A stretch of 47,327 nt of DNA from positions 1-47,327 of the IMG/VR virus record IMGVR_UViG_3300046737_000121, one strand, 5' to 3'. The notes below the pieces were generated by a model. It was not told where the DNA came from. It saw nothing but the letters and a program-made list of their open reading frames with translations, and searched no databases. The DNA is from a virus. Below, in pieces: positions 2,529 through 38,700 of this stretch (the first letter of the stretch is position 1; each line of letters begins with the position of its first letter). The position numbers were made by a program, and so were the translations under genes.

Positions 2529-3396
2529 GTGTCAACGGCTGCGCTTGGCCCTGGCCGTGGCGGCTGTACATGGCCGATACTTGGCCGATCAGCTCCACCG
2601 CGTACTCCGGGGGGAGAAGAATCTGGTCGTTTTGCGTGTCGTTGCTGTATGGATTGGGTTTGGTGCGGATTTCCGCGGTGACTACCCCGAGCGCCGGCGC
2701 GGAGCTTCCGAGGAAGAAGTAGAGCGTGTCGCCGGCCTGACGGTAGGCCACCCGCGACACCATCGAAGGTCGCAGCGGGAGGGCGTTGAAACCGTCCGCG
2801 TCCGGCACGAAATCGAACGTCCCCTGTCCGGGCCGCGTCACGGAGTCCTTGACCGAAATCACGCGGTCGAAATAGAAGGCCGAGAGGGAGGCCGATTGGA
2901 GCGCCTGCGAGCGCATCACTTGGACAATCACCGCATCGGAAAGCGGATTGTAGGTGTCCGCGAAACCGGTGGGGGCGATCAGCTCAATCTCCGCTGTCGC
3001 GCCTCCCTTGACCACCCGAAACAGCAGGTGACCCACACCAACCGTCAGCCCAGCGGCCCGCATGAACGTCACCGCAAGAATCGCCCCGGTCTGGAACGTC
3101 CCAGAGCTGCGGGTGATGGAAGTTTCAGAGAAGGCGGTAATGAGGTACGGACCGGCATAAATGACCGTTGTTCCTGGAACCACTCCCGGTCCGGTGGCGA
3201 GAAGCTCCGTATCGGAGGACACCGAGAGGGTCACGCTCGATTGGTAGAACGGGTCGGCCTGGAGCTTCTTCCAGAGGTCCATGAGCGCCACCGTCACGTA
3301 CTGCTGGCGCATCTCCGGGAGGATTTCGACCGAACGGATGCCTGCCGCACGTGCGGCCATATCGTCGAGCTGGCGGTATGTGAGGTTCGTTTTCAT
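2515..3396 (-). CDS. head-tail adaptor-like structural protein
   Basis: 293 residues in the late operon, between a 196-residue unknown and the nozzle-like gene, overlapping both by a few bases. The N terminus is helical (LTYRQLDDMAARAAGIRS then EMRQQYVTVALMDLWKKL). A long beta-rich middle follows. The protein ends with PPEYAVELIGQVSAMYSRH, the kind of proline-start helix that closes many phage adaptor or tubular A proteins. That ending and the position before the nozzle suggest a connector between portal and tail. No diagnostic motif is visible, so an accessory tail protein remains possible. Confidence 0.5.
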   Translation of the reverse strand: MKTNLTYRQLDDMAARAAGIRSVEILPEMRQQYVTVALMDLWKKLQADPFYQSSVTLSVSSDTELLATGPGVVPGTTVIYAGPYLITAFSETSITRSSGTFQTGAILAVTFMRAAGLTVGVGHLLFRVVKGGATAEIELIAPTGFADTYNPLSDAVIVQVMRSQALQSASLSAFYFDRVISVKDSVTRPGQGTFDFVPDADGFNALPLRPSMVSRVAYRQAGDTLYFFLGSSAPALGVVTAEIRTKPNPYSNDTQNDQILLPPEYAVELIGQVSAMYSRHGQGQAQPLTRAEQ

Positions 3397-3983
3397 GTGG
3401 CGAGGTTCCCAGCACCGTCACGGATGGCCCGCTGGACCATCTTGTCCCGGATGGTCGCATCCCAATACGGGTGGAGCGATACGTCTGTGGCGTTTGCCAC
3501 CGTCAGGTCCACGTGATTGATGACCATGAGCGCCTGCACCTCCGTGGCCGCTGCCGCTGGTGAAATGATGAGGTCCGTCCCCAGCTCGTAGAACACGGGC
3601 CGGTCGGTCGAGGCCTGGAGCATCGTGTCCCGGTCGGTTTCCAGAAGGTGAATGTCCCCCGGCAACACGCGGGTGAATATCTTGCCGTTCGCGGTGTCCT
3701 TCAGGGAGATGATGAACTGCGCCGTGGTCGGCCTTGCACCCACTCCGAGGGTGATGGTGATGGGGGAGGACCGCTGGAGGTACTGCGGTATCTTCTCCAG
3801 CCCCGGGTCCTTCAGGGCAATCATCTCCGCGAGGATGTCCCGGATGGCATCGTTCTCGTACACGACGAGCAGGGCCGAGAGATACCGCTTGTTGGCATCG
3901 TCGGAGGCCGCGGCGCTCGTCCGGGCGTCCTGGAGCCTGCGGGCCGCGGCGAGGATGTTGGCATCGAATCGGGGGCTTGGCAT
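3393..3983 (-). CDS. tail or connector protein of unknown family
   Basis: 196 residues. It begins with a helical stretch (ANILAAARRLQDARTSAAASDDANKRYLSALLVVYENDAIRD is the region, residues 8-50) and continues with a beta-rich core. It ends in a helix containing HPYWDATIRDKMVQRAIRD. Its stop overlaps the start of the next gene in an ATGA and it begins two bases after the adaptor stop. I do not recognise the family. Position among adaptor, nozzle and fibre genes suggests a virion part, perhaps a second connector ring. Confidence 0.55.
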   Translation of the reverse strand: MPSPRFDANILAAARRLQDARTSAAASDDANKRYLSALLVVYENDAIRDILAEMIALKDPGLEKIPQYLQRSSPITITLGVGARPTTAQFIISLKDTANGKIFTRVLPGDIHLLETDRDTMLQASTDRPVFYELGTDLIISPAAAATEVQALMVINHVDLTVANATDVSLHPYWDATIRDKMVQRAIRDGAGNLAT

Positions 3984-3984
3984 A

Positions 3985-4608
3985 TCAGTACCCCAGCACG
4001 TCTGTCGTGTGCTTCGTTTCGATGGGGGCGGTCGTGGTCGTGACCGTGTGGCTGATCTTCTCGTCGAGCTTCATTTCGTACAGGGGGGTGTTGTCGCCCA
4101 CCACGCGGGCCACCAAACCCTCCACCAGCACCGGATCCCATCCCGCATCGACCGAGGGGTCTGCGCCGAGGGCGGTGGGGGCCGGCAGGGCCGCGTAGTA
4201 GATCGTGACCGTTTCGACGGCCTGCGGTATCGGGTAGAGGTCCACGTACACCTTCCACGCGAATGCGTAGAGGGGGTGGGGCCAGATGATGCACCGGTTC
4301 TTCAGGTCCGTCCAGGCCGGCACACCCTCCACGAACTTCAGGCAGGCCTTTCCGTCCCCCGCTTTCCACCGTGGCGGGACTTCTGCGCCCAGCAGCTTGT
4401 AGATCGGATACCCCAGCGAGTACACGCTTTGACCGGGGATGAGGGTGAGCGGGGTCCGCTCCTGGATGGCGAGGCCGCGTTCGCACACCTCCCGCTCCAC
4501 GCCAGAGAGCAGGGCCAGAAGCTCCTGGGCCTGGATTTCCTTCTGCGCGAGGTCTTTGATGCGCCGCTGGGCCTGTTCAATGATCTGGTCCACCCTTCCG
4601 AGGCTCAT
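3985..4608 (-). CDS. phage adaptor protein (T7 gp11 / P22 gp4 type), candidate
   Basis: 207 residues, within the range for adaptor rings that attach below the portal of podoviruses. The N-terminal helices (RVDQIIEQAQRRIKDLAQKE, then GVEREVCERGLAIQE) lead into LTLIPGQSVYSLGYPIYKLL. That pattern, a helix followed by a threonine-rich strand with GQ-x(2)-Y-x-L, is what I associate with phage adaptor proteins. The second half has the usual strand-loop-helix ending with WDPVLVEGLVARVVGDNTPL. It starts four bases inside the end of the preceding gene. Adaptor is the best call, from pattern memory rather than a search. Confidence 0.6.
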   Translation of the reverse strand: MSLGRVDQIIEQAQRRIKDLAQKEIQAQELLALLSGVEREVCERGLAIQERTPLTLIPGQSVYSLGYPIYKLLGAEVPPRWKAGDGKACLKFVEGVPAWTDLKNRCIIWPHPLYAFAWKVYVDLYPIPQAVETVTIYYAALPAPTALGADPSVDAGWDPVLVEGLVARVVGDNTPLYEMKLDEKISHTVTTTTAPIETKHTTDVLGY

Positions 4609-5072
4609 ATCAGGTCTGCCTCAACGAGCTTCTGCCGCAGTTGTTCCTCCGTGGCGAAATCGGGACTCCCGGCCTCGGTCGCCTTCACCTTCGCCACCGC
4701 AAGGCTCTCGTAGGGGTTCGGGACGCTCATCACCGACCCGCTCATCGTGGTCACGCGGTCCGGGTTGGCCTCGTACCAGATGGCCAGCCTCGTCGTGGAC
4801 AGGTAGGGGTACGCGCTCTCCAGGGTGAATACGTAGAGGTTGTTCCCTTCGACGCAATACGCCCCCTCCACCACGTTGTCCGCGTCGAACGGCATGGCGA
4901 AAATGTCCGATTTCGTGGAGGGTTCCGTCATCTGGAGCAGGGTCGCGTTGTTGAATTGCAGGTCCACCCCGAGGATGCTCCGGTAATGCAGCGTGGAGAT
5001 GCTGAACAGCACCACGTTCCCGTAGGGACCGTCCACTACCTGCGAGCCATCGGTGATTTCGTTTCCGAACAT
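4605..5072 (-). CDS. late-operon protein of unknown function
   Basis: 155 residues with a clear ribosome site (AAGGAG) nine bases before the ATG. It is mostly beta-rich (VVLFSISTLHYRSILGVDLQ, NLYVFTLESAYPYL) with a short charged helix at the end (ATEEQLRQKLVEADL). Its stop overlaps the adaptor gene start. No signal peptide or membrane segment. It lies between the exported GH18 enzyme and the adaptor, so a small structural protein is likely; I do not recognise the family. Confidence 0.5.
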   Translation of the reverse strand: MFGNEITDGSQVVDGPYGNVVLFSISTLHYRSILGVDLQFNNATLLQMTEPSTKSDIFAMPFDADNVVEGAYCVEGNNLYVFTLESAYPYLSTTRLAIWYEANPDRVTTMSGSVMSVPNPYESLAVAKVKATEAGSPDFATEEQLRQKLVEADLI

Positions 5073-5082
5073 GGTCAGCTCC

Positions 5083-6555
5083 TTATGGTTTCGGTGGAGG
5101 TTTCTCGACCGTGAACGTGACTGTCCCGCTCACACTCGTTGCAGGGACCGGAAGCGTGACCCCTCCGGTGACGGTGTTGGGGGTCGCTTGGAGAGCGCCG
5201 TTCCATCCGTTTTTGTACCCCTGATCGTAGAACCGTTTGGCCATCCCCGCGGTATCGCAGGTCACCACCGGAGGGGGGAAATCCGGACAGCCGTTGTTCG
5301 AGGCTGGTCCGGGCTGATTTTTGCAGCTGTCCTTCACGTCCGGTACACCATCTCCATCGGTGTCGATCGCTGGGGGCGGACTACTCCCGCGGGCGAACAC
5401 CCGTTCGATCATCCGAGCATGCCAATACCGCCCACCAGGAGGGGGGAAGTCGGTCGCGGACACCTCGCTGCCGAGGTTCCACCAGCACACCCCGCCGAGC
5501 TTCATGCTGTCCACCACCTTGCGGGTCGCAATCATCCCGGAATCGCGGTCCGGCAGGGCCACGAACGTCCAGAGGTTCGACCCCAGCCTGAACCAATAAG
5601 CCTGCGCGATCTGGTCAAAGTAGATTTCATTCCCAGGAACCGTGGAGAACTCATCCCACCAATCCGCGAAATCATCGTCCCCGCCGCTGGATGGACCGTT
5701 CAGGGCCTGCCGGATGGTCGAGGCGTTGAGCCACTCCCCGCCGTTGAAATCCACGCCCACATTGATCTTGTTCATGGGCCACCCACCGTCCCGGACCCGG
5801 ATGGCCATGCGCTGCATGCTGGGCGCGATTGCATTGACCCCTGATACACAACACGAATCGGTGGCCCCCCCGGTCCCGTCCCAATTCTTGTACGATTTCG
5901 GGCTGTTGTCGAAGGTCACGCGGCCCCAGCTCGTCCCGTTGTAGTCGTAGCACATTAGGTTGAGGAACGCCACCTTGCTCTTGATCGTCGCCGTGGCCCA
6001 TTTGATCGCGTTCGGAACCCCTGCGGTCATCACGATGTACGGGCGCTCGGTCGCGTGAAGCCCCTGCCAGCGCTTCTGGAGCGAATCGTTGAGCGCCGTT
6101 AGGAATTGCGCCATCGAAGTCGTGTTGTAGCTGTTGCTCTCGAAATCAAACTCGAAGAAGTCCATGCGGTTCTGGTCGAAGTACACCAGATACTTGGAAA
6201 TCCACGGCCCTTGTGTCGCGGCCCCGCCGTTGACCATCGTGACCAGCGAACCGTCACCGGAGCCGCCGAGGGTGATGCCTGCGGCGACACCCTTGCCGTG
6301 GGCGTAGGCCGTGGCCGGACCGTACTGATTCACGTAATAGCTCTGCGGAGGGGTGTTCCCGTTGGCCGCGAATATCCCCACGTGCGTGGTCGCCTTCCAG
6401 GGCAGGCTGTCGGCCGGCACGTCCCCCGCGGTGTACGGCAGCGGCCATTTCGTATCGTCGTAGGTCAGCCACACGTAGCTGATGCCGGTGTACTGCCCGA
6501 AGGCCGTTGAGGCCAGCAGGAGCAACAATATCAGAATCCGCTTAATCGTTCGCAT
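5083..6555 (-). CDS. exported GH18-family glycoside hydrolase with TSP3 calcium repeat
   Basis: 490 residues. Residues 1-20 are a Sec signal peptide (charged MRTIKR, then a run of Leu, ending STAFG before Gln). The catalytic signature of family 18 glycosidases, D-x-x-D-x-D-x-E, appears as D132-F-F-E135-F-D137-F-E139, with Glu in place of the second Asp. The acid Glu139 and Asp137 are present. The second family motif is MCYDYNG at 201-207, and a Trp-rich strand GGVCWWNLG lies near 355. Family members cleave beta-1,4-linked N-acetylglucosamine in chitin, glycoproteins or peptidoglycan. Residues about 397-424 form a thrombospondin-type-3 repeat (DTDGDGVPD), common in Bacteroidota surface proteins. 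The start has AGGAGG seven bases upstream and overlaps the preceding gene. It may be a secreted lysin or a surface-glycan enzyme; I cannot tell which. Confidence 0.8.
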   Translation of the reverse strand: MRTIKRILILLLLLASTAFGQYTGISYVWLTYDDTKWPLPYTAGDVPADSLPWKATTHVGIFAANGNTPPQSYYVNQYGPATAYAHGKGVAAGITLGGSGDGSLVTMVNGGAATQGPWISKYLVYFDQNRMDFFEFDFESNSYNTTSMAQFLTALNDSLQKRWQGLHATERPYIVMTAGVPNAIKWATATIKSKVAFLNLMCYDYNGTSWGRVTFDNSPKSYKNWDGTGGATDSCCVSGVNAIAPSMQRMAIRVRDGGWPMNKINVGVDFNGGEWLNASTIRQALNGPSSGGDDDFADWWDEFSTVPGNEIYFDQIAQAYWFRLGSNLWTFVALPDRDSGMIATRKVVDSMKLGGVCWWNLGSEVSATDFPPPGGRYWHARMIERVFARGSSPPPAIDTDGDGVPDVKDSCKNQPGPASNNGCPDFPPPVVTCDTAGMAKRFYDQGYKNGWNGALQATPNTVTGGVTLPVPATSVSGTVTFTVEKPPPKP

Positions 6556-7471
6556 CGGTCGCCTCCTGGGTGACGGTGAGCTGGGTGAGATAACCGATAC
6601 CGGGGTTGACGCAGCTCAACCGCACACCTACCTTCACCGGTGGCGATTGGGCTACGGGTGTGCCGCTCGATATTGCATAACTCAATTCCACCTCCGGGGC
6701 CAGAATGTCCAGATGGGTAATATTGGTTCCGGTCGCTGAATCAACCGGCACATCGTCCACCAAGAGCGTCACTTTCCACGCCCGGACGTTGCTCGAGGTC
6801 AGGGCAAACGCCGTGACCCGGATGAACCGGTTTTCTGCGCGTGGGCGGATGTAGCGCTCCATGATGATGTTCCCAGCCGTCTGGTTCGTCCGGAAGGTAT
6901 CAGGTCCGGGGACCGAGCTGTTCAGGGCCGTGTCGGCCACCCCACCCGCGGAGTAGATGAGGTAGCTCGTCACGGGTCGAACCTGCGCGATCAGCTTTGC
7001 CCGTATGAGCGAGGAATCGGCCACCGTCCCCACCGGGGTTCCGGGTTTCAGCTTCGTCCGGCCTCCGGTCGTGTCCACCAGAAGCGCCTGCCCGTGGATC
7101 AGCCCCGCCAGGGAGGCAGAATCCAAGTACACTCCGGCCACCTTGATACCTTTCGCCGCCCGCAGCGAGTCGAGGTTCAGATTGAGCGCCCGTTTCAGCG
7201 TGTGCCGTCCCGCGGTCGTGTCGGCCACCAGCGCCTCTCCGGCCTCGAGGCCTGCGAGGCTGGCAGAGTCGATGTACCAACCCGCCACGTACAACCCCTT
7301 CAGGTTGTAGCCGGTGTCCACCATGATCGTCTGGTACTGCGGATTGCGCCGGTCCCGCGCCGGCTGGGTGTCCGCGTTGTTGCAGCTCGAGCCCCACGCC
7401 ATCAGCACCAGCGCGAGGGGGAGCATGCCGAACGCGAGGGGAAGCATGTCACCGTTGAAAAATCGTTTCAT
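6542..7471 (-). CDS. exported, lipoprotein-like protein with two internal repeats
   Basis: 309 residues. A hydrophobic N terminus (LPLALVLMAWGSSC, Cys near residue 30) looks like a lipoprotein signal, but the lipobox (G-S-S-C) is poor, so lipid attachment is uncertain. Two copies of a block of about 38 residues follow. The first contains VAGWYIDSASLAGLEAGEAL and the second VAGVYLDSASLAGLIHGQAL, at about residues 60-97 and 107-144. The C-terminal half is beta-rich. It overlaps the GH18 gene by 14 bases, implying co-expression, and has an AAGGA ribosome site. Function unknown. The repeat resembles the Asp-Ser-Ala-rich segments in this phage's own tail fibre. Confidence 0.6.
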   Translation of the reverse strand: MKRFFNGDMLPLAFGMLPLALVLMAWGSSCNNADTQPARDRRNPQYQTIMVDTGYNLKGLYVAGWYIDSASLAGLEAGEALVADTTAGRHTLKRALNLNLDSLRAAKGIKVAGVYLDSASLAGLIHGQALLVDTTGGRTKLKPGTPVGTVADSSLIRAKLIAQVRPVTSYLIYSAGGVADTALNSSVPGPDTFRTNQTAGNIIMERYIRPRAENRFIRVTAFALTSSNVRAWKVTLLVDDVPVDSATGTNITHLDILAPEVELSYAISSGTPVAQSPPVKVGVRLSCVNPGIGYLTQLTVTQEATDAND

Positions 7472-7480
7472 GGTGGTCCT

Positions 7481-7894
7481 TTAGATGTTCGGAATTGCCG
7501 TGTAATACACGGTCGTGCCATCGGCCAGGGGATGCGCCGTGAACCCGGAAGCGTCCTGCTCGATCAGCGGAGCGTCCACGTTCAGGCCGGTATCCGACCA
7601 CACCATCAGGGTGTAATCCCCCACGATGGGGCCGCCGTCGAAGTCGATCCGCGTCCCTGCCGCATCGGCCACCGCGTTGCCTCCGCGCCAATTCGCCGGC
7701 GTGAACACCGTCAGGACCGCGCCGTCATGGGTGGAGGCCCGGAAGTCGGTCAGCCCCTTGTCGTGCATCCGGTCCGCAATCCACTGATACGCGGCGTTGA
7801 GCTTGGCCATCTTCTCCGCGTCGGTCAGGGCGTTGAAGGCGCTCCCGATCTGGATGGCCACCGAGCTGTTCAGGATGTTCGAGAGTATCGGCAT
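7481..7894 (-). CDS. late-operon protein of unknown function
   Basis: 137 residues, no signal peptide. It has an N-terminal helix region (SNILNSSVAIQIGSAFNALT, then EKMAKLNAAYQWIADRMHD) followed by strands. The start is preceded by GGGAGGGA. It sits among genes for exported proteins downstream of the capsid gene, and its second half (TTVYYTAIPNI at the end) reads like a virion-surface domain. A decoration or fibre-associated protein is possible, but I do not recognise the family. Confidence 0.45.
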   Translation of the reverse strand: MPILSNILNSSVAIQIGSAFNALTDAEKMAKLNAAYQWIADRMHDKGLTDFRASTHDGAVLTVFTPANWRGGNAVADAAGTRIDFDGGPIVGDYTLMVWSDTGLNVDAPLIEQDASGFTAHPLADGTTVYYTAIPNI

Positions 7895-7903
7895 GGTCCC
7901 TCC

Positions 7904-8242
7904 CTACCTCAAGACGGTACACCGGTACACGGCGGTCGAGCTGCCCGTTTTGAACCGGAGAAAGCGCCTGTTGACGAGCGCGTCGATGGTCAGGGCGCTG
8001 GAGATGGGGATGGTGAAGTACCTCCCGGCCACCGTGTCGTTCTCGAGGGCCACGATCAGCGGGATGCTCCCGCTTGTATTCGTGATGATGACCCGCTTTA
8101 TCAGCGTCTTGGACCCGATGAATGTGCTGTCCCACGTCACGCTGGCCGTCTTGGTCGTTTCTGCGGCCTCCGTCACGTGTATCTGGGCGCTCGAGAGCGA
8201 TACCAGCAGGAAGGTCAGCGCGGCGAGGATAATGAGCTTCAT
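7904..8242 (-). CDS. small exported protein of unknown function
   Basis: 112 residues. It begins with a textbook signal peptide (MKLIILAALTFLLVSLSSAQ, cleavage expected after Ala19). The mature part of about 93 residues is beta-rich (KTASVTWDSTFIGSKTLIKR, RVIITNTSGS) and looks like a single immunoglobulin-like or beta-sandwich domain. It is the first gene after the structured gap at 8243-8386 and has an AAGGGA ribosome site. The signal is unexpected for a gene in a virion operon. Confidence 0.55.
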   Translation of the reverse strand: MKLIILAALTFLLVSLSSAQIHVTEAAETTKTASVTWDSTFIGSKTLIKRVIITNTSGSIPLIVALENDTVAGRYFTIPISSALTIDALVNRRFLRFKTGSSTAVYRCTVLR

Positions 8243-8258
8243 GGAGCGTCCCTTTCGT

Positions 8259-8300
8259 GTGATAAATCTGAATTATTACGTGATAAATCTGTTTTATCTG
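8259..8300 (-). promoter_or_regulatory. candidate operator/promoter: repeated GATAAATCTG boxes
   Basis: An AT-rich island in a GC-rich genome. On the plus strand GTGATAAATCTG occurs at 8259-8270 and again at 8280-8291. The copies are 21 bases apart, about two helical turns, so both lie on one face of the DNA. The second copy also forms a dyad with TTTATC at 8293-8298. The arrangement is that of a transcription-factor binding site just upstream of the small exported-protein gene. On the minus strand the stretch between the boxes contains TAATAAT, a possible -10-like element. Confidence 0.4.
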
Positions 8301-8315
8301 GTGAATCCCCGTGTT

Positions 8316-8374
8316 CGCGGGACCGGCCAGGTGACGGGTCCGGATGAGCTACCGGCCTGGTAGGCGGTCCCGCG
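8316..8374 (-). other. long GC-rich stem-loop in an intergenic gap
   Basis: Bases 8316-8324 (CGCGGGACC) pair with 8366-8374. Inside, CCAGG (8327-8331) pairs with 8356-8360 and CCGG (8340-8343) with 8352-8355. No T run follows on either strand, so this is not an ordinary terminator. It lies directly after the stop of the preceding late gene and before the repeated operator-like boxes. It could stabilise or process the capsid-region messenger. Confidence 0.45.
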
Positions 8375-8386
8375 GTGGGGAATGTC

Positions 8387-29700: not shown

Positions 29701-32700
29701 CCAGGAGGTTGTTCTTGTGGTAATCCTTCAGCGCAGCGCTGAATTGCGCGGAGAGCCATTCCTTCACCTGCTTGTTCAGGTCCTCGCCGGTGAACGTCTT
29801 GCCCTCCACCTCCACGGTCGTGGCCTTCCCATCCGGGAAAGCCGCCTTTACCTTGTCCCTCCCCGCCGTCTGGACCTTCAGTTGGCCCTCGAGGTAGGGG
29901 ACCGTCACGCGGTTGAGGGTGTCGATTTCGTTCTTCAGCTGGCCCAGCCCGGACGCGTGGGATTCGGCCAGGGACTTGATACGCAGTATTTGGCTCTCGA
30001 GGACGAACCGCTGCATCGCCAGCTCGTTGCCGGTCAGCGCGGCCATCAGCTCCCCGTAGCTCATTTGGCTCTCGTCGGTGGGGTCCTCCAGCTCCATGTC
30101 ATTCACGTCCCCGCGGAGGATCTGGTTGGCGAACGCGATTTTCTGGTAATTGCGCCGCCATTGCATGGTGTCCATCGTTTTCTCGACACCCATCGCGGCA
30201 ATCTCCACCTCCGGGGGGGGAGCGCCCAGCCGGACCGCCTCGCGCGTCCGCATGATGCGGCCCTCGCGCTGCTGCACGTCCATCGGGCGGTCCGGCACGT
30301 CCATGTGAATCAGGTCCTCGAGGCGCTCTTGGATGTTCACGCCGATACCCATGCGGTCGGTGGTTCCGAACAGCACCCGGATGGTCCCCTCGTTCATCAT
30401 GTTGAACAGCGCTTCCCGGGCCGCGCTCGACTTGTAATCGTGGATGACGGCGATTTCCGCGGCCGGGACCCCCCGGGCAATCAGCTTCTTCTTCATATCC
30501 TGGAACAGGTTGAACTCATGCTTCCCGTAGGCGGGATTGAGGACCTGCTCGTCATCGTCCAGGTACTTTTCCTTGATTTCGGGACTCTGGAACCGATCGC
30601 TGAATACGGCAATCGTCCCGCGCTGGGGCTCGGTTTCCTTCAGCTTGTTCAGAATATGCTCGACCGTCATGTTGGTCTTGCTCCCGGGGGCATCGGGGGC
30701 CTCCGGGTTGATTAAGCGCAGGTCGATCGCCGCCATCCGGGCGAGGCCATGCATCACCAGCGGTACGTGGCGCTGCTCCCGCTTCGCGGCCCCGGAGAGC
30801 TTCTCCCATTGCTCCATCCTGCGGGCCAGCGTTTTGATGTAGGCCTCCAGCTCGGGAGTCCGCTTCATCATTATGTTGGTGACCTTGCCGTTTTTCAGGG
30901 TCGGCAGGCCGGTCACCCCCGCGTCCTCGGCCAGCACCACATCGGCCATATCAAGGAAGGCCCGAATCAGCGCCGGCGCGTTGATAAACTTTCGGAATCG
31001 GGACACCGTTTTGAAACGTCCCGTGGCCGTCTGCTCGGCATCCTCCACGATGCGCCCGAAGGAATTGGCGAACGCGTCGAAGGTTTCAATTTTGTAATCG
31101 CGCAGCAGGTCCGGGCGCAGATACCGGAACCACGTCCATACCTCGGCCATCGTGTTGGTGATGGGGGTCCCGGTGGACATGATGACGTTCCCCCCGCCAG
31201 CGTTCTCCCGCACGTGCCGGACCTTCATGTACATCCCCAGCGCCCGGTCGGAGCGCTTCACGTCGATGCCTTTCACGCGGTCCATCGACGTAATGAGGCC
31301 CAGCTTCTTGTAGGCGTGCGCCTCGTCCACGATGAGGCCCTCCACGCCCAGCTCCTCCCAGGTCGGCATATCCTTGTCCACCTTCCGGTCGGCCAGCTTG
31401 TCCAGATCGGCCCGGAGCGTTTTCAGGCGCTTCACCAGATTCTTGACGTTGACGTTCTTCCCCTCTTTGGCCTTCTCGGCGCGGATCACTTCCTCCAGCA
31501 CGTCGATTTCCTCCTGGATGAAGGCCTGCACGCGGGCCGGGGAATCCTCGATCAGCTCCACGAACGACTGCGGGAGGATGACAATATCCCAATCGTTCGT
31601 TTTGATGACCGACAGGAGCCGCTTGCGCTGTTCGGTGCTACGCTCGGCTTCGGAGGGGGCGAGGATGCGGGCCGTGGGGTAGAGCAATTTCGCGGACTTT
31701 GCGAATTGCTCGGTGGTGGCGTTCTGCGGGACGATCACCGTCTTACGGGATTTGCCCAGCCGCTTCCACTCCATCGCAATCGTGATCTGGATGTACGTCT
31801 TGCCGGTCCCCACCGCATGGAACAGGCCCATTGACGGCCCGGTCACCCCCCGGTTGATCGCGCCTTTCTGCTTGTCCCGCAGGACGATCGCGTGACTCGC
31901 TCCGGGGTAATGCGTCCAGGGGGGGATGGTGGATTCCCGCTTGACGATGCCGTTGTACGTTTCGTTGAAGATTTCTTCGATCTCATCGTGGTACTGATTG
32001 CGCTCCCGGACCCACTTTTCGAAATGTCCCGGAGCTGTTGGCCCCTCCCCCACCAGCTTTTTCGCGTTCATGTTCGCCTGGAGGGTCGCGGCGTGGTCGG
32101 TCAGGTAGGTCTTACCGCCATCCCCATCGTCCACGGCGTACTTTATCTCGATGGGGGCGCTGTTCATGGCCTTCTCCAATATCTGGAGGCCGGTCATGGT
32201 CTTGCCACTCATTTTGCTCGTCACGCCCCACTCGTTGTGATTCGCTGCGCTGTGCGCCTTCGTGTTGCTGATCGTCCACGTGCCGGTCTGCGGCGTGTAC
32301 CGCACCGTGGACCCGTACACCTTGAACGTGTCCCGGATATAATCGTCGTACACCCTCACCGGGACCCATTGCGTCCCGGGCCGGAAGGCAATGGCTTGGA
32401 TGGGCCGCTTCGCCGGCAGCACCTTTGCGAGCGCGTCCACGTTCTTCTGGTACTCCGGGTTGTCCGCAATCCGCGAGAGCGCCGCATTATACTTCTGCCG
32501 GACCTTCCCGGAGAGGTACACGTCCGGGGGCTCGATCACCCCGGTGTCCGGGTTCTCGTAGGCCAGCTCGTTGTCCAGGAGGGCCTGCTTCACGCGTTCG
32601 GCGGGTTGGCCCACCAGCTCACCGATGTACGCAGGGTCCACCATCCCGCGCCACATGAGGGAGATGGAGAGCGCATCAGCGATACTGCCGGCGCTCTGCG

Positions 32701-35700
32701 GTTCCTCCCGGGGGAAGGTGAACCGCTTTTTGAGGATGTCCGATTTCTCGATGGTCTTGTCGTACTTCCAGCGGCCCCCCTCGTTGGTGACGGTCTTTTT
32801 GACAATCTCGAGGCCGCTCACCGGGTAGTAGTCCACATCGGACTTTAGGAGCTTGTGGCCGATGCCGGTCAGATTGCCGTTGCGCTTCACGTGGTTGTCG
32901 TACACCGTGTTCAGCTCGGAGCGCTTCTTCTCTACCAGCTTCGGGTCGCTCTCCGGGTCCTTCTCCATCTTCTCCAGCTCGCGCATCTTGTCCCGGATGG
33001 CGATATACCCCTCTACCCGCTTGTGGAACGGGTCCGGCTTGCCATCGGGTTTGAGCTTCGGGATGAGTTTCCGCGTGCCATCGACCACCTGGTACACGTT
33101 CCCCTTCGCGTCCTTCTTGAACGAGCCTTCGATGTCACCGTACTCGGCTTCCTCTGCCTCGAAAATCTCGTCCTCACTTTTGATGCCCACCCCTACGCCG
33201 AACACCTTTTCGGGGAGCTTTGCCACCGCGGCCGTCAGCTGGTCCTTCAGCACCGCCCCCGGGGTGGGCGAGAGGGTAGGGGTATCGCCGCGGTACATTG
33301 TCCCCTCGAGGCCCATCGTCCCCAGCATCATCTCCGGGTGGGCAATGTAATACTCGTTCAGCGGGTACTCCCCCTTTTCGACTGTCTGGACCGGCGCGTC
33401 ATGCCAGCGCTGCCCCAGCGTGAAGCCGGCGCCGTCCTTCTTCCGCAGGATGATGATGTCGGTCGTGACCTCGGTTCCTGCGTTCTTGCTGAAAGCGTTG
33501 TTCGGCAAACGAATTGCCCCCACCAGGTCGGCGCGATCGGCAAGGTACTCCCGGGCCGCGGCGCTGGTGGCGTTGTCCATCGTGCTGTTCGAGGTGATCG
33601 CCACGACGAGCCCCCCCGGCTTCACCGTGTCCAGCATCCGGGCGAAGAAGTAATTGTGCAGGGAGAGCTTCGGGTAGCGGGGGTCGTAGGGGGCGGTTTT
33701 GCCGAACGGCACGTTGCCGATGGCGAGGTTGAAATGATTGGCCCGCAGGGGGGCCTTTTCCACCCCCATGACGTGTACCTTCGATTGAGGGTAGAGCTTC
33801 CTGGTGATGCGGCCGGAAATGCTGTCCAGCTCGACGAGCGCGAATCGCGCCGCATCTGCAATAGCATCCGGGGCCATGCCGATCACGTGGCCAATCCCCG
33901 CGGAGGGTTCCAGAATGTTGCCGTCTTTGATACCCAACCTCTCGGCAATCGCCCAGAGGCCGTACCGAATCACGTCAGAGCTGGTGTAATGCGCGTTGAT
34001 GGTGCTGTCCCGCGCCTCACTCCATTCCTGCGGGGTCAGCGCTGCCTTCACATCATCGTAGAATTTCCCCAGGTCCTTGTTGTAGCGGTCGAATACCTGC
34101 GAGAGTCCACCCCAGCCCACGTATTGGGCGAGGATGTTTTTTTCTTCTGGTGAGGGGTTGCGGTTTTCGGCTTCGAGCTTCTTCAGCAGCTCGATGGCCT
34201 TCAGGTTGTTGCGGGTGCGGGTGACGCTTCCCCCGGGGGCAACGTCGAAGGACTCGCTGATTCGGATGTTTCGGTCTGCGGGGGCTGTGGGAGCGTTTGC
34301 GTCCACGCCACGATTGCCTGCCACTCCCTTTCCGGCATCGGTATCACCTCCGGGGCGTTCTCCGGTTGCGGGGGGTTGATTACCTCCTTGTACGCCACTT
34401 CCTCCGCTTGGTCCTCCGACAGCTTCCCCTCCCGAAGCTGCGCCTCGAGTACCCCGTTGGCCCTTTCGACCTCCCGGTTGAGGTATGCGTGGAGCTTGCC
34501 CTCCCTGTGGAGATCCCGGAGGAACCCCGGTTGATGCCACCGGAGGTACTCCAGCCGGTCCCACCACATCGGGTCCTGTTCCGGGTGTTTCAGTAGGTCC
34601 AGACTCATCTTCTTTGTCCTCCTGTATGGTACGATCTTCTGCGTTCGCTGTCAAGTCTGCCCGGTACTCCGCGTCCCGCTTGGCTTTAGAGGCCTGCGCC
34701 TCCGGGGAGGTCAGGAGCTTCGCCTTGTCGGTGTTCCAGAGGAATACGCTGGTCGGGCTTCCGGTGTCATCGACACCCCAAACATGAAGGCCGTCATATC
34801 CCAGCGCTTTGGCCGCTTCGGTAATCGCGGGCCAATTATCCACCATCACGTAATTGACTTGAATCTCGGGATCATCCTGCAATACTTCTCTGATGGCCGT
34901 AATCTCATCGGGGTTGTCGGTAAGCTCCAGCGCTTTCCCCAACACCTGCCACATGTCGTGTGAATCGGTTAGCGCCAGCTTCGCGCCGGCGAGGTTGTAC
35001 GAGAGCGCATCACCACCGGCCTCGATGGGGTTGTGATACGTGCTTGCCCCCGGGAGAGAGAACCACGCGCCGTTGGGGTCGATTTCCCCCTTGCGGACCG
35101 CGATCACATGGGGCGATGGGTCCTCGGTGTCGGCCTCGGTGGTCGCCGCGTCCACGTCCTCCTTGTCGCTTACTATCCTGCGAGCGGCGGTTAAATAATC
35201 ATGCACCCCGTTCTCGTTCAGCGAGAGATACCCCTTCGGCCTTCCCTCGGTGGCGATGGGGGACTTGTACACCATCGGGGCGGTGCGGTAATCTTGGAAG
35301 AACACGGCAAGGTCCCCGCCGTGGCTGAAAGCGTAGGTGATGCCGTTGACCGGCGCGGGGAGGGTTTTACGTTGAATCCATGCTTTGTCCTCGAACTGAA
35401 TCACGTCCCGTTTGGTCCCGTCCGGGTCGGTCGATTCGGTCCAGGTCACCTTGCCGAAATCATGCAGCTGACCCCGGAGATTACCCGGTGCGATATGCTT
35501 AATCTTCGTCCCCTTGATCTGTGAGGGGTCGAATATCACCGTCACCGGGATTTCATAATTCTCCAGCGGGTCAAACGCCTTCACGCTATCGTAGCCTGCC
35601 GCCTTCAGGGCTTCTTGGACCCGCGGGATGTACACCAGGTCCAGCTCGTTCGTGCCATCGTAGGGGGAATGTTTTGCCACCTCCGGGATGTATGGGTAGC

Positions 35701-38700
35701 CGGTATCATCCTCTGCAAACTCCACCCCGATCTTTTTGGCAATCTCCACCATCTGCTCCAGCGTGGCGGGGTTCTTGATTTCTACCTCGTTCGAGCTGAT
35801 ACCCGCGGGTTCATCGTCCGGTCCTCGTTCGTGAGCGTAGAACTCCGCATCATTTTCCTTGTCCGCGAAAAAGATAGGTTTCCCCGGATCGAACGTCTGC
35901 GGACCCCGCCGTCCGTGGTAGAGCGTGACCGTGGACCCCTGCGCCGGCGTGGCCGCGGCCTCCTTCACGGTCGAGGTGTCCAGCGCCCACTCGTCCAGGG
36001 CCTTGAACGTCCCCTTGTCCGTTTTCGGGAGCTTCACCCCGGTGGCCTCGCTGAAGGCTTTTTTGCTATTCGCGTTGCCGCGGTGCAGAATCTCCTTCAG
36101 GGTCTTTATGTCCTTCGCCTCGATGGCCGTGAATAGCTTGGTCGCAGACTTCTCGTAGAGCGCGAGGATGCGCTTGCGCTGTGCGTCCTGTTGCTCCGGT
36201 GTTCCAGCTCGGTACGTGTCAGAGGCCTCCAGCTCGACCAGAGCGCCATCGTAGAGCCGGTCGATCATGTTTTCCCGGGCCGCTTTCATCCTGTCGGCCA
36301 CCGGGGCGGTCGTGGGGGGCGCTTCAGCGGGGACAGAGGGTTCGCCCGGGCGCGGGGTGGGCGATGGGGTCGGGGCTGTGGTTCCGGATTCCTTGACCTT
36401 CTCGATTGAGCGCGTTGGAACACTCTCGGCCAGCATCGGAGAGAGGTGTTTGCCCTCGATTGCCACTGTTCCATCCGGGTTGATTGCGACGATGCGGTCC
36501 TTGATTCCGGTGGCCAGCATCACCTCGTCACCTACCTTCAACTCCACCCCGTTCCTGTCCTTCACCGTCTGCGGCGTGGTTGTGGTGGATGCCGGGGCCT
36601 CCTTCTTGAACACCTTGTACCGCGGGGAAAGGCCGGTTTGGTTGATCTTGTTGAGGATGGCATCCTCCAACACTTTGGAGTCGAGGCTCCGCAGAAAGTC
36701 CTCGGCCTGCTTCATTGCCCCATCCCGCGTGGTGGCTCCTGCCGCGACGATCTTCTGGCCGCTCCTGGCCTCGACCGCATACCACCTATCGTCCAGCTTG
36801 TGCGTGAAAAATTCGTGTGTTGGGGCCACCTGGCTCTTGTACACCTTGCCTTTAACGGGATGCAGGCCCCACCCCTTATCGCCCATAAAGTAGGCGTAGA
36901 GCTGCGTGTCGGCGCTCCGGTCAATGTCCTCGAGCGTGGTCCCCTCCGGGACGTGCGGCTGCTCCACGTTCACCACCAGCGCGGGAAACTCCTTCTTCCC
37001 CAGCGCCTGAAGCGCCGCCAGCCGGTGACCACCCTCCAGCACGTAGGGGTCGCCGTCACCGTACACCACGATCAGCGGCTTGATCTTGCCGTTCGCGTCA
37101 ATCGCCTCTGTGAGCTTTCGCACCTTCGCTTGGTCATCGGTGGAGCGGTAGCTCATTTCCCCGAAATCTGACATGGGGACCACCCGGACCCCGTTTTCGT
37201 TGTAATCCAGCCCGCCCAGCGAGGCTTCGATGGAGCTGGTGTTCGGAATGTCCTCTTGGACCTCGAGGCCCTCCACCATGTCGCCGGTTTCCACTTTGGG
37301 TAAAGTAGACGGGTCGGGGGTGATCGGTGGCAGCTCTGCCTCGCCCTGAATACCGGTTTTTGTGGTGTCGATGGGGCTGTGGTACTCGCTTGGCTCCCTT
37401 CCGCTCTGGAGCCACGCCAGCCGGTCCTCCAACTCGTTCTGGCTGTACGGGGTCCGCGGGCCTTTTTTGTCCACTTTCGCAAACTGCGCCTCAACGAATC
37501 CCTCTGCCACCTCCCGAAGATGCTGGCTCTGCTGCTTGCTCCCGGAGAGCTTTTTGTACCGGTCGTATGCCTCTTGGGCCTGTTCGGTTGTCAGCTGGGC
37601 GCCGATTTCCGCGGTGGCCTCGGTGGAGAAGATGGCTTTGCCGGGATACTTCTCCTGGAATCGCTCCACGACAGGGAAAATAGATTCCGGCCAACCGGCT
37701 ACGTTCGCCGGGATCTCGGTCGGCGCTCCACCGAATCCAGGGAACGGCGTGGTTTCCTCTGTCGTCGTGTCGCCTTCGCCACTATCACCCTCCCGGAGTT
37801 TGTTCGCCCGGGCCTCGATCTCTCCCAGCAGGGCATCCTGTTCAGCCTCGGAGAGCTTCCGGGTGTCGTTCTCGCCTCTACCGCGCCGATCATCCCATAC
37901 CTCCGCGGCGGCTTCGGCAAAATCCTCGTCCCCGTGTGATCGGTCGTCGATGGCCTTTTCAAGAATCTCCTGCGCCGTGTCCCCGCTGAACATGGAGTTG
38001 TCGGCAAGGGGGTGTCTGGTCTGAATAGGAGGAGCGCCCACCACCGACCCCGCCGCCGTTCCAACACCTTCGGCCTCGCTTGGGGCCGGGGTGATGATCG
38101 GACCTCTTGACGAGGCTGGCCGCGGCGCTCCTGATGGGGCGGGCGGTGCAGCGGGGGATAGGGGGGGTTCAGGCCCCTGGGGGGAAACGGATGCTTCGGC
38201 CACTCCGGGGCCTTCGGTCAGCAGACGGTCCTCGGGCCGTGTTTCGGCCATCGGGGCCGGACGCGCCCCTTCGCGCGGGGGAGCGCCCGCGGGGCCAATG
38301 TCGGGCCGCGCCGGTCGCGCTGTGCGCCGGGACCGGCGTGCGTTCATTTCCAGATTGCGTTCGGTGTTCGGGAACTCGCCCAGGATGCGCCGCATGAAGG
38401 CCGGGGTGGAGGGGTAGTATTCGCGGCCCCCCACGTCCGATACGCCCCTGCGGACCGCTTCGCCGGGGGCGCTGAACGTGTCGTTGATGCGCCGGACCAG
38501 CTCGGCCTCCTGGGGGGTGGCCGTCCCCCGGTTCACTCGCAGATACACGTCCCGGAGGGCTTCAGGGGTGTACACGTCCGCGATCTTGCGCGAGAGGGCC
38601 GTCCTTGCCCCCTCCGCGGCCCATGTGCGGGTGTCCGCGGCCCCGGTGCGTATTCCCTCGGCTACCTCGCCGGGACGCTTCGCGCCGGCGAAGATGGCCA

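Follow-up and report, generated by a model that had tools for sequence, protein, structure and literature searches.

A putative TnpV-like gene nested in the polyvalent methylase-helicase genes of phages and conjugative elements

A giant polyvalent gene and the frame within it

The window, i.e., the whole 47,327-nt stretch of DNA analyzed here, is the entire IMG/VR record IMGVR_UViG_3300046737_000121. It has a G+C content of 61% and also encodes a P22-like portal and a major head protein. The features of its giant gene are listed in Table 1. The gene product matches the DarB-like antirestriction family, its Helicase_C match is above the cut-off, and its methylase shows approximately 45% identity with its relatives. 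DarB-like polyvalent proteins are characterized by a methylase fused to an SF2/SNF2 helicase in a giant multidomain protein, and the giant gene (the host gene, hereafter) meets this description. The same class includes P1 DarB and the polyvalent methylase-helicases that phages and conjugative elements carry (Iyer et al. 2017, PMC5512222). The giant product of the relative Burkholderia phage JC1 (gp69) has been found in virions by mass spectrometry, with 51 peptides (PMC9144972). Presence in the virion is thus shown for JC1 only, and carriage in the virion and injection are inferred by analogy for the window phage.

Table 1. Positions of the features of the host gene and of the nested gene in the window
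Feature	Position	Strand	Remark
Giant polyvalent DarB-like gene (host gene), 4,275 aa	26717..39544	-	phrog_10089, 1438 bits
SF2/SNF2 helicase region of the host	29930..32212	-	
N6-methylase domain of the host, from residue about 1785	33305..34192	-	Directly after the overlap
Nested gene, putative 135-aa TnpV-like protein	34201..34608	-	+1 relative to the host gene; homologues in the same frame and place
Pro/Ser/Thr-rich C-terminal tail, nested residues 106-135	34204..34293	-	Low confidence
C-terminal helix, nested residues 93-105, PMPEREWQAIVAW region	34294..34332	-	Common to window-type relatives (L134, L149, L177)
Conserved four-helix core, nested residues 13-81	34366..34572	-	Structure prediction and phmmer alignments
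Shine-Dalgarno sequence AGGAGG	34618..34623	-	Nine bases before the nested ATG
In-frame TGA	34651..34653	-	45 nt upstream of the nested ATG; limits frameshift entry into the nested frame
ParB N-terminal-like domain of the host	36923..37147	-	Upstream of the nested gene; below the Pfam cut-off

A 135-codon frame runs on the minus strand from an ATG (34608-34606) to a stop codon (34203-34201), wholly within the open frame of the host gene, and overlaps host residues about 1646-1782. These coordinates, and the nine-base distance of AGGAGG, are exactly as described in the sequence-only reading, which had proposed a 135-residue gene inside the giant one. The frame has two of the attributes of a fully nested overlapping gene, in that the whole ORF lies inside a gene of another frame on the same strand, and that it possesses its own start codon and ribosome-binding site. 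The nested protein begins MSLDLLKHPEQDPMWWDRLEYLRWHQPGFLRDLHREGKLHAYLNREVERANGVLEAQLREGKLSEDQAEEVAYKEVINPPQPENAPEVIPMPEREWQAIVAWTQTLPQ..., while the host frame over the overlap reads ESGPTETPGTGPDVVGPAGVPPVASTGVPPGSPQGG... and is a Gly/Pro-rich linker. The compositions agree with the earlier description of a Trp-rich protein set against a Gly/Pro linker: the nested frame has 26% hydrophobic residues and five Trp, whereas 89% of the linker residues are G/P/S/T/Q/E/D/R/N/A/K and 11% are hydrophobic.

The nested ORF might be merely an untranslated frame left open by chance in a linker rich in G+C. The window contains 143 ORFs of 100 aa or more, and the longest +1 run of the giant gene is matched or exceeded in 57% of its synonymous shuffles. 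The length of the nested ORF alone is no evidence, since equally long +1 runs are common in the shuffles. What exceeds chance is homology, codon-position variation and the Shine-Dalgarno signals, all of which are sequence evidence, and not ORF length.

Nested frames in related phages and selection on both products

The window phage is isolated. In direct scans of IMG/VR, neither the nested protein nor the methylase piece nor the C-terminal part of the giant gene had a close relative, and alignments were therefore needed to reach relatives. A tblastn search of phage records with the nested protein gave noise only. Searches with the methylase domain led to phages of Erwinia, Klebsiella, Pseudomonas, Vibrio, Agrobacterium, Ochrobactrum, Sinorhizobium, Burkholderia and Microcystis, and these phages have conserved proteins, e.g., MNLNNWVELARAHWKEFLPAKYAALKKAGALEAALREAAEQT..., in the +1 frame upstream of the methylase domain. 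A profile of the phage nested proteins found 92 loci (70 in IMG/VR and 22 in bacterial genomes), 84 of which are fully nested in an open host frame with the same relative frame and none of which uses the other frame. Among the eight remaining loci, two (L071 and L079) run off the contig, one (L067) is a decayed remnant with methylase traces nearby, and five (L103, L104, L111, L112 and L114) are free-standing relatives without a polyvalent gene nearby.

To obtain a sample unbiased by the nested gene, 80 loci were picked solely by the closeness of their methylase domains to that of the window. The family profiles match 61 of them, all on the plus strand and in the +1 frame. Sixty are fully inside the host frame, the other being Sinorhizobium phage PBC5, and most of the 19 unmatched loci have a +1 ORF with a Shine-Dalgarno-like match at the same place. 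The window protein alone also reaches these loci: a phmmer search of their 11,982 six-frame ORFs gives 22 matches at E ≤ 1 (best E 3e-11), every one of which is the +1 nested ORF on the plus strand at the same place. The nested proteins of its nearest relatives are 30-37% identical to the window copy. The window host linker shows no similarity to other host linkers at E ≤ 10.

A profile search had been named as a check of the sequence-only reading, and an absence of homologues anywhere as its refutation. Homologues instead abound (22 of the 80 loci by single sequence, 61 by profiles). Relatives that keep the linker and interrupt the nested frame would likewise have refuted it, and none was seen among those with an intact polyvalent gene.

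At seven loci (L135, L137-L139, L148, L158 and L194), +1 ORFs with sequences such as MSFLANxT... lie at the same place upstream of the methylase domain and are not matched by the TnpV-like profiles. These are possibly other nested families in the same slot.

In 21 phylogenetically independent pairs, the differences per site at nested codon positions 1, 2 and 3 are 0.076, 0.067 and 0.167, respectively. The downstream host sequence of the same pairs gives 0.074, 0.052 and 0.275, the usual excess at host position 3. Since nested positions 1, 2 and 3 correspond to host positions 2, 3 and 1, the host wobble position is the least variable one in the overlap. The comparison of codon positions across related phages that had been suggested thus gives an excess at nested position 3, and the claim that the DNA was shaped by the nested gene is supported by this excess and by the homology found among nested proteins and not among linkers. 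The host frame is open across the nested gene in all 59 clusters (60% identity), against 15.3 expected when the nested codons are shuffled synonymously, while the third frame is open in none of the 59. The entries were chosen as nested, so that the count of open host frames is partly due to selection of the sample. No intact polyvalent gene that breaks the host frame was seen except in PBC5. The position-3 excess and the open host frames satisfy a further attribute of a fully nested overlapping gene, selection in both frames. Shine-Dalgarno matches of at least four bases precede 66 of the 67 nested starts, compared with 22% of control ATGs in the same frame.

A chance frame is not expected to have homologous products at the same place and in the same frame in unrelated phages, substitutions concentrated at nested codon position 3, or a Shine-Dalgarno sequence at nearly every start, and we consider this explanation already refuted by the protein homology across phages. 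The conserved stretch could also be a DNA or RNA signal, such as a packaging, transfer or regulatory site, instead of a protein, as its conserved location upstream of the methylase domain would allow. Conservation at the amino acid level, with an excess at codon position 3 and reaching proteins only 30% identical, leaves practically no room for such a signal.

PBC5 (L005, AF448724) should be considered separately, because the upstream half of its giant gene reads straight into the nested frame. The giant gene is split by a single-base frame change at 5044-5047 of this locus, 43 nt ahead of the nested ATG; this change is either a sequencing error or a natural mutation. The nested domain at the end of phrog_938 (labelled endolysin) is probably due to the fusion. 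PBC5 and this profile of the upstream protein raise the question of whether the nested sequence is an alternative C-terminus of the upstream giant half made by programmed frameshifting, and not a separate gene. However, 16 of 67 loci have a stop codon no more than 18 nt ahead of the nested start (45 nt in the window), the nested starts carry Shine-Dalgarno sequences, free-standing relatives exist, and PBC5 is the sole fusion case. An origin by frameshifting is very unlikely, given the 16 upstream stops and the single-base shift that accounts for PBC5.

Kinship with TnpV and nesting in conjugative elements

The sequence-only reading had noted a resemblance to TnpV (PF14198), known from elements of the Tn4451/Tn4453 type and other Firmicutes elements. 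The window protein aligns with residues 18-59 on profile positions 30-71, at 15.2 bits (E 0.022), and does not reach the cut-off of 27 bits. The homologous core on the central part of the profile is present, with W/Y..L..HWKE..P..Y..L...G.L..L common to both. The N-terminal LTY..GDYL.P segment of TnpV is absent; the phage forms start at profile position 22-30. Of the 71 nested proteins scanned singly, 29 match PF14198 at E ≤ 0.01 (best 1e-8); any other family matches at most one of the 71. The TnpV profile matches nested ORFs of PEp14 and Burkholderia, and in a Fibrobacter MAG the 16,761-base contig that carries a nested locus (L115) has a TnpV match of 38.8 bits, which exceeds the cut-off of 27 bits. 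By hhalign, the nested family aligns with the window protein at E 9e-5 and with TnpV at E 5e-4. We infer that the nested phage protein is a short helical, distant homologue of TnpV. The noted resemblance thus holds as distant homology, while the name TnpV itself is too strong. We use the label "TnpV-like" because of the low score of the window copy and the lack of the N-terminal segment in the phage forms.

The helices predicted for the window protein (residues 13-25, 27-35, 39-60 and 65-77) agree with those predicted for a family representative (residues 3-17, 19-28, 31-52 and 56-67), though the two predictions use a common alignment and are not fully independent. A fold search of the PDB gave no significant match, and the sole match in a viral fold library is Q8W6J4, which shows 70% identity and is presumed to be PBC5 orf33. 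A second look with VIA-align (model m3d0b812ce638) points to PG0816 of Porphyromonas gingivalis (PDB 2apl; Z 7.6, rmsd 2.2 over 64 residues, 14% identity), a helical fold like that of the nested protein, with no sequence link found. We take PG0816 to be DUF1896, a family typical of Bacteroidales conjugative transposons. On these models, PG0816/DUF1896 may be the Bacteroidales equivalent of the nested protein, or the likeness may be just a common helical arrangement, as the Z value is in the range usual for unrelated helical proteins. Sequence matches in the PDB were designed helical proteins and an Smc chain, and were rejected. No convincing match came from NCBIfam or PADLOC.

Canonical TnpV occurs in plasmids of Firmicutes and in fecal scaffolds. 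In prior descriptions TnpV is a free-standing transposon gene and is not nested. Contrarily, at all eight loci examined that have an SNF2/methylase polyvalent gene (L002, L003, L009, L010 and L011, and L116, L117 and L119, of Cohnella, Virgibacillus and Monoglobus plasmids), canonical TnpV is fully nested in it in the +1 frame like the phage forms, and is preceded by GA-rich Shine-Dalgarno-like sequences. The methylase-selected sample contains further canonical nested TnpV (L157, L159 and L169). The earlier suggestion that TnpV lies near methylase-helicase genes of conjugative elements is therefore confirmed and extended, the two-in-one arrangement being the same. The phage-type nested protein gave no plasmid match, and a search of IMG/VR with a single TnpV query found nothing. 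An alignment of TnpV sequences proved too diverse to serve in a pattern scan.

The gene tables of these plasmids list TnpV alone (Cohnella and Monoglobus) or the giant SNF2 protein alone (Virgibacillus), in no case both, and look as if one of two overlapping genes had been dropped. In the fecal scaffold L003, the polyvalent gene is split into overlapping frames 2-2824 and 2694-8378 with TnpV nested in the first part; the split is either a frameshift or genuine.

The free-standing relatives bear on function. A methylase search of their five genomes gave no match in four and only a weak one in L103. A stand-alone TnpV is also found in Streptococcus phiNJ3 (L118), after two recombinase genes. Since the free-standing relatives mostly lack a methylase match, the nested protein need not act through a polyvalent partner. 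Conversely, P1 darB (L120), unlike the window host, and some fecal polyvalent genes (L008) have no detectable TnpV-like nested gene, so that the nested gene is not essential to every DarB-like protein. The free-standing member on the Pseudidiomarina sediminum chromosome (L112 3974-4762) is 262 aa long with a hydrophobic C-terminal part, and its genome is one of the four that give no DarB-like methylase match.

The nested protein may be an accessory of recombination or excision of the TnpV type, having no functional link to the polyvalent protein and overlapping it only to save space. TnpV of Tn4451 has been postulated, but only postulated, to be Xis-like (PMC3158075), and the phiNJ3 recombinases and the partnerless relatives fit such a role. 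However, a single class of gene hosts the nested protein from phages of Proteobacteria and Microcystis to Firmicutes plasmids, and such recurrence is difficult to account for unless some role is shared. We regard an independent excision factor as rather unlikely, though a serious possibility.

Possible role and origin of the nested product

We interpret the locus as a true coding gene that overprints, in the +1 frame, a DarB-like gene for a polyvalent methylase-helicase, on the strength of sequence comparison without protein data. That the nested gene is real seems nearly certain. The full reading, i.e., a real gene that is nested, TnpV-like and shared by phages and conjugative elements, with any function left aside, has a probability of roughly 0.93 in our estimate.

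Ribosomes would initiate internally on the giant mRNA at the nested Shine-Dalgarno sequence and ATG; this is inferred, as there are no ribosome-profiling or peptide data. Each transcript would then give two proteins, the giant one that accompanies the DNA on delivery and a small helical one synthesized in the producing cell, and the timing and stoichiometry of the two products would thereby be coupled. The nested product may help the polyvalent protein as an assembly or loading chaperone, or as an inhibitor that quiets the methylase/helicase before transfer. Such an accessory or regulatory role is favored because the overlap recurs in one gene class in both phages and conjugative elements, yet the function is only inferred, and we put its chance slightly below even. 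Helpers of DarB-type antirestriction in P1 (DdrA, DdrB, Hdf and Ulx, as cited in PMC9144972) offer a precedent. The stronger proposal, that the +1-nested TnpV-like protein is an ancestral, functionally coupled second product serving as a dedicated loader, assembly factor or inhibitor, is more tentative still. If it is true, phages and conjugative elements share a two-in-one locus by descent or exchange, the pair is among the most widespread conserved overlapping gene pairs of prokaryotic mobile elements, and TnpV is given a function.

At this position, it is the nested frame that is conserved, and the host linker, of low complexity, forms a bridge around it. The nested gene looks locally older, because its conserved family includes free-standing members and the linkers are of low complexity and cannot be aligned over distance. 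It looks as though the polyvalent protein reads across an older frame by means of its linker, though this is inferred without trees.

Fully nested out-of-frame genes are known, such as Rz1 in Rz, phiX174 E in D and comS in srfAB, which likewise encode a small protein with its own ribosome-binding site out of frame in a larger gene. Unlike these, the TnpV-like family spans phages of several phyla and conjugative plasmids with a constant frame and gene class. The main text of Iyer et al. 2017 (PMC5512222) makes no mention of TnpV or overlapping genes, and the literature searched, which excluded subscription titles, gave no account of any gene nested within those of the DarB-like or SNF2/methylase kind. 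Overlapping genes as well as TnpV are already known; what is new is a nested family in the same frame and the same gene class in both phages and conjugative elements. The giant DarB-like genes of many phages and the SNF2/methylase genes of many conjugative elements, which have been read as one protein, would encode two. The same arrangement in many unrelated phages and conjugative plasmids implies that evolution kept both proteins in one stretch, and offers a natural setting in which to study the persistence of such a pair across long evolutionary distances. TnpV, a family of unknown function, gains a testable partner, and antirestriction systems gain a candidate component.

The nested gene had not been annotated before within the giant phage gene, whose product protects injected DNA, and none of the 21 phage records matching the nested protein lists a separate feature for it. 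In Pseudomonas phage Itty13 (L017, MW460249), the deposited annotation has three large minus-strand genes at the polyvalent locus, and the nested gene, like the polyvalent frame of 4,112 open codons, is on the plus strand; the minus-strand calls are a probable annotation error.
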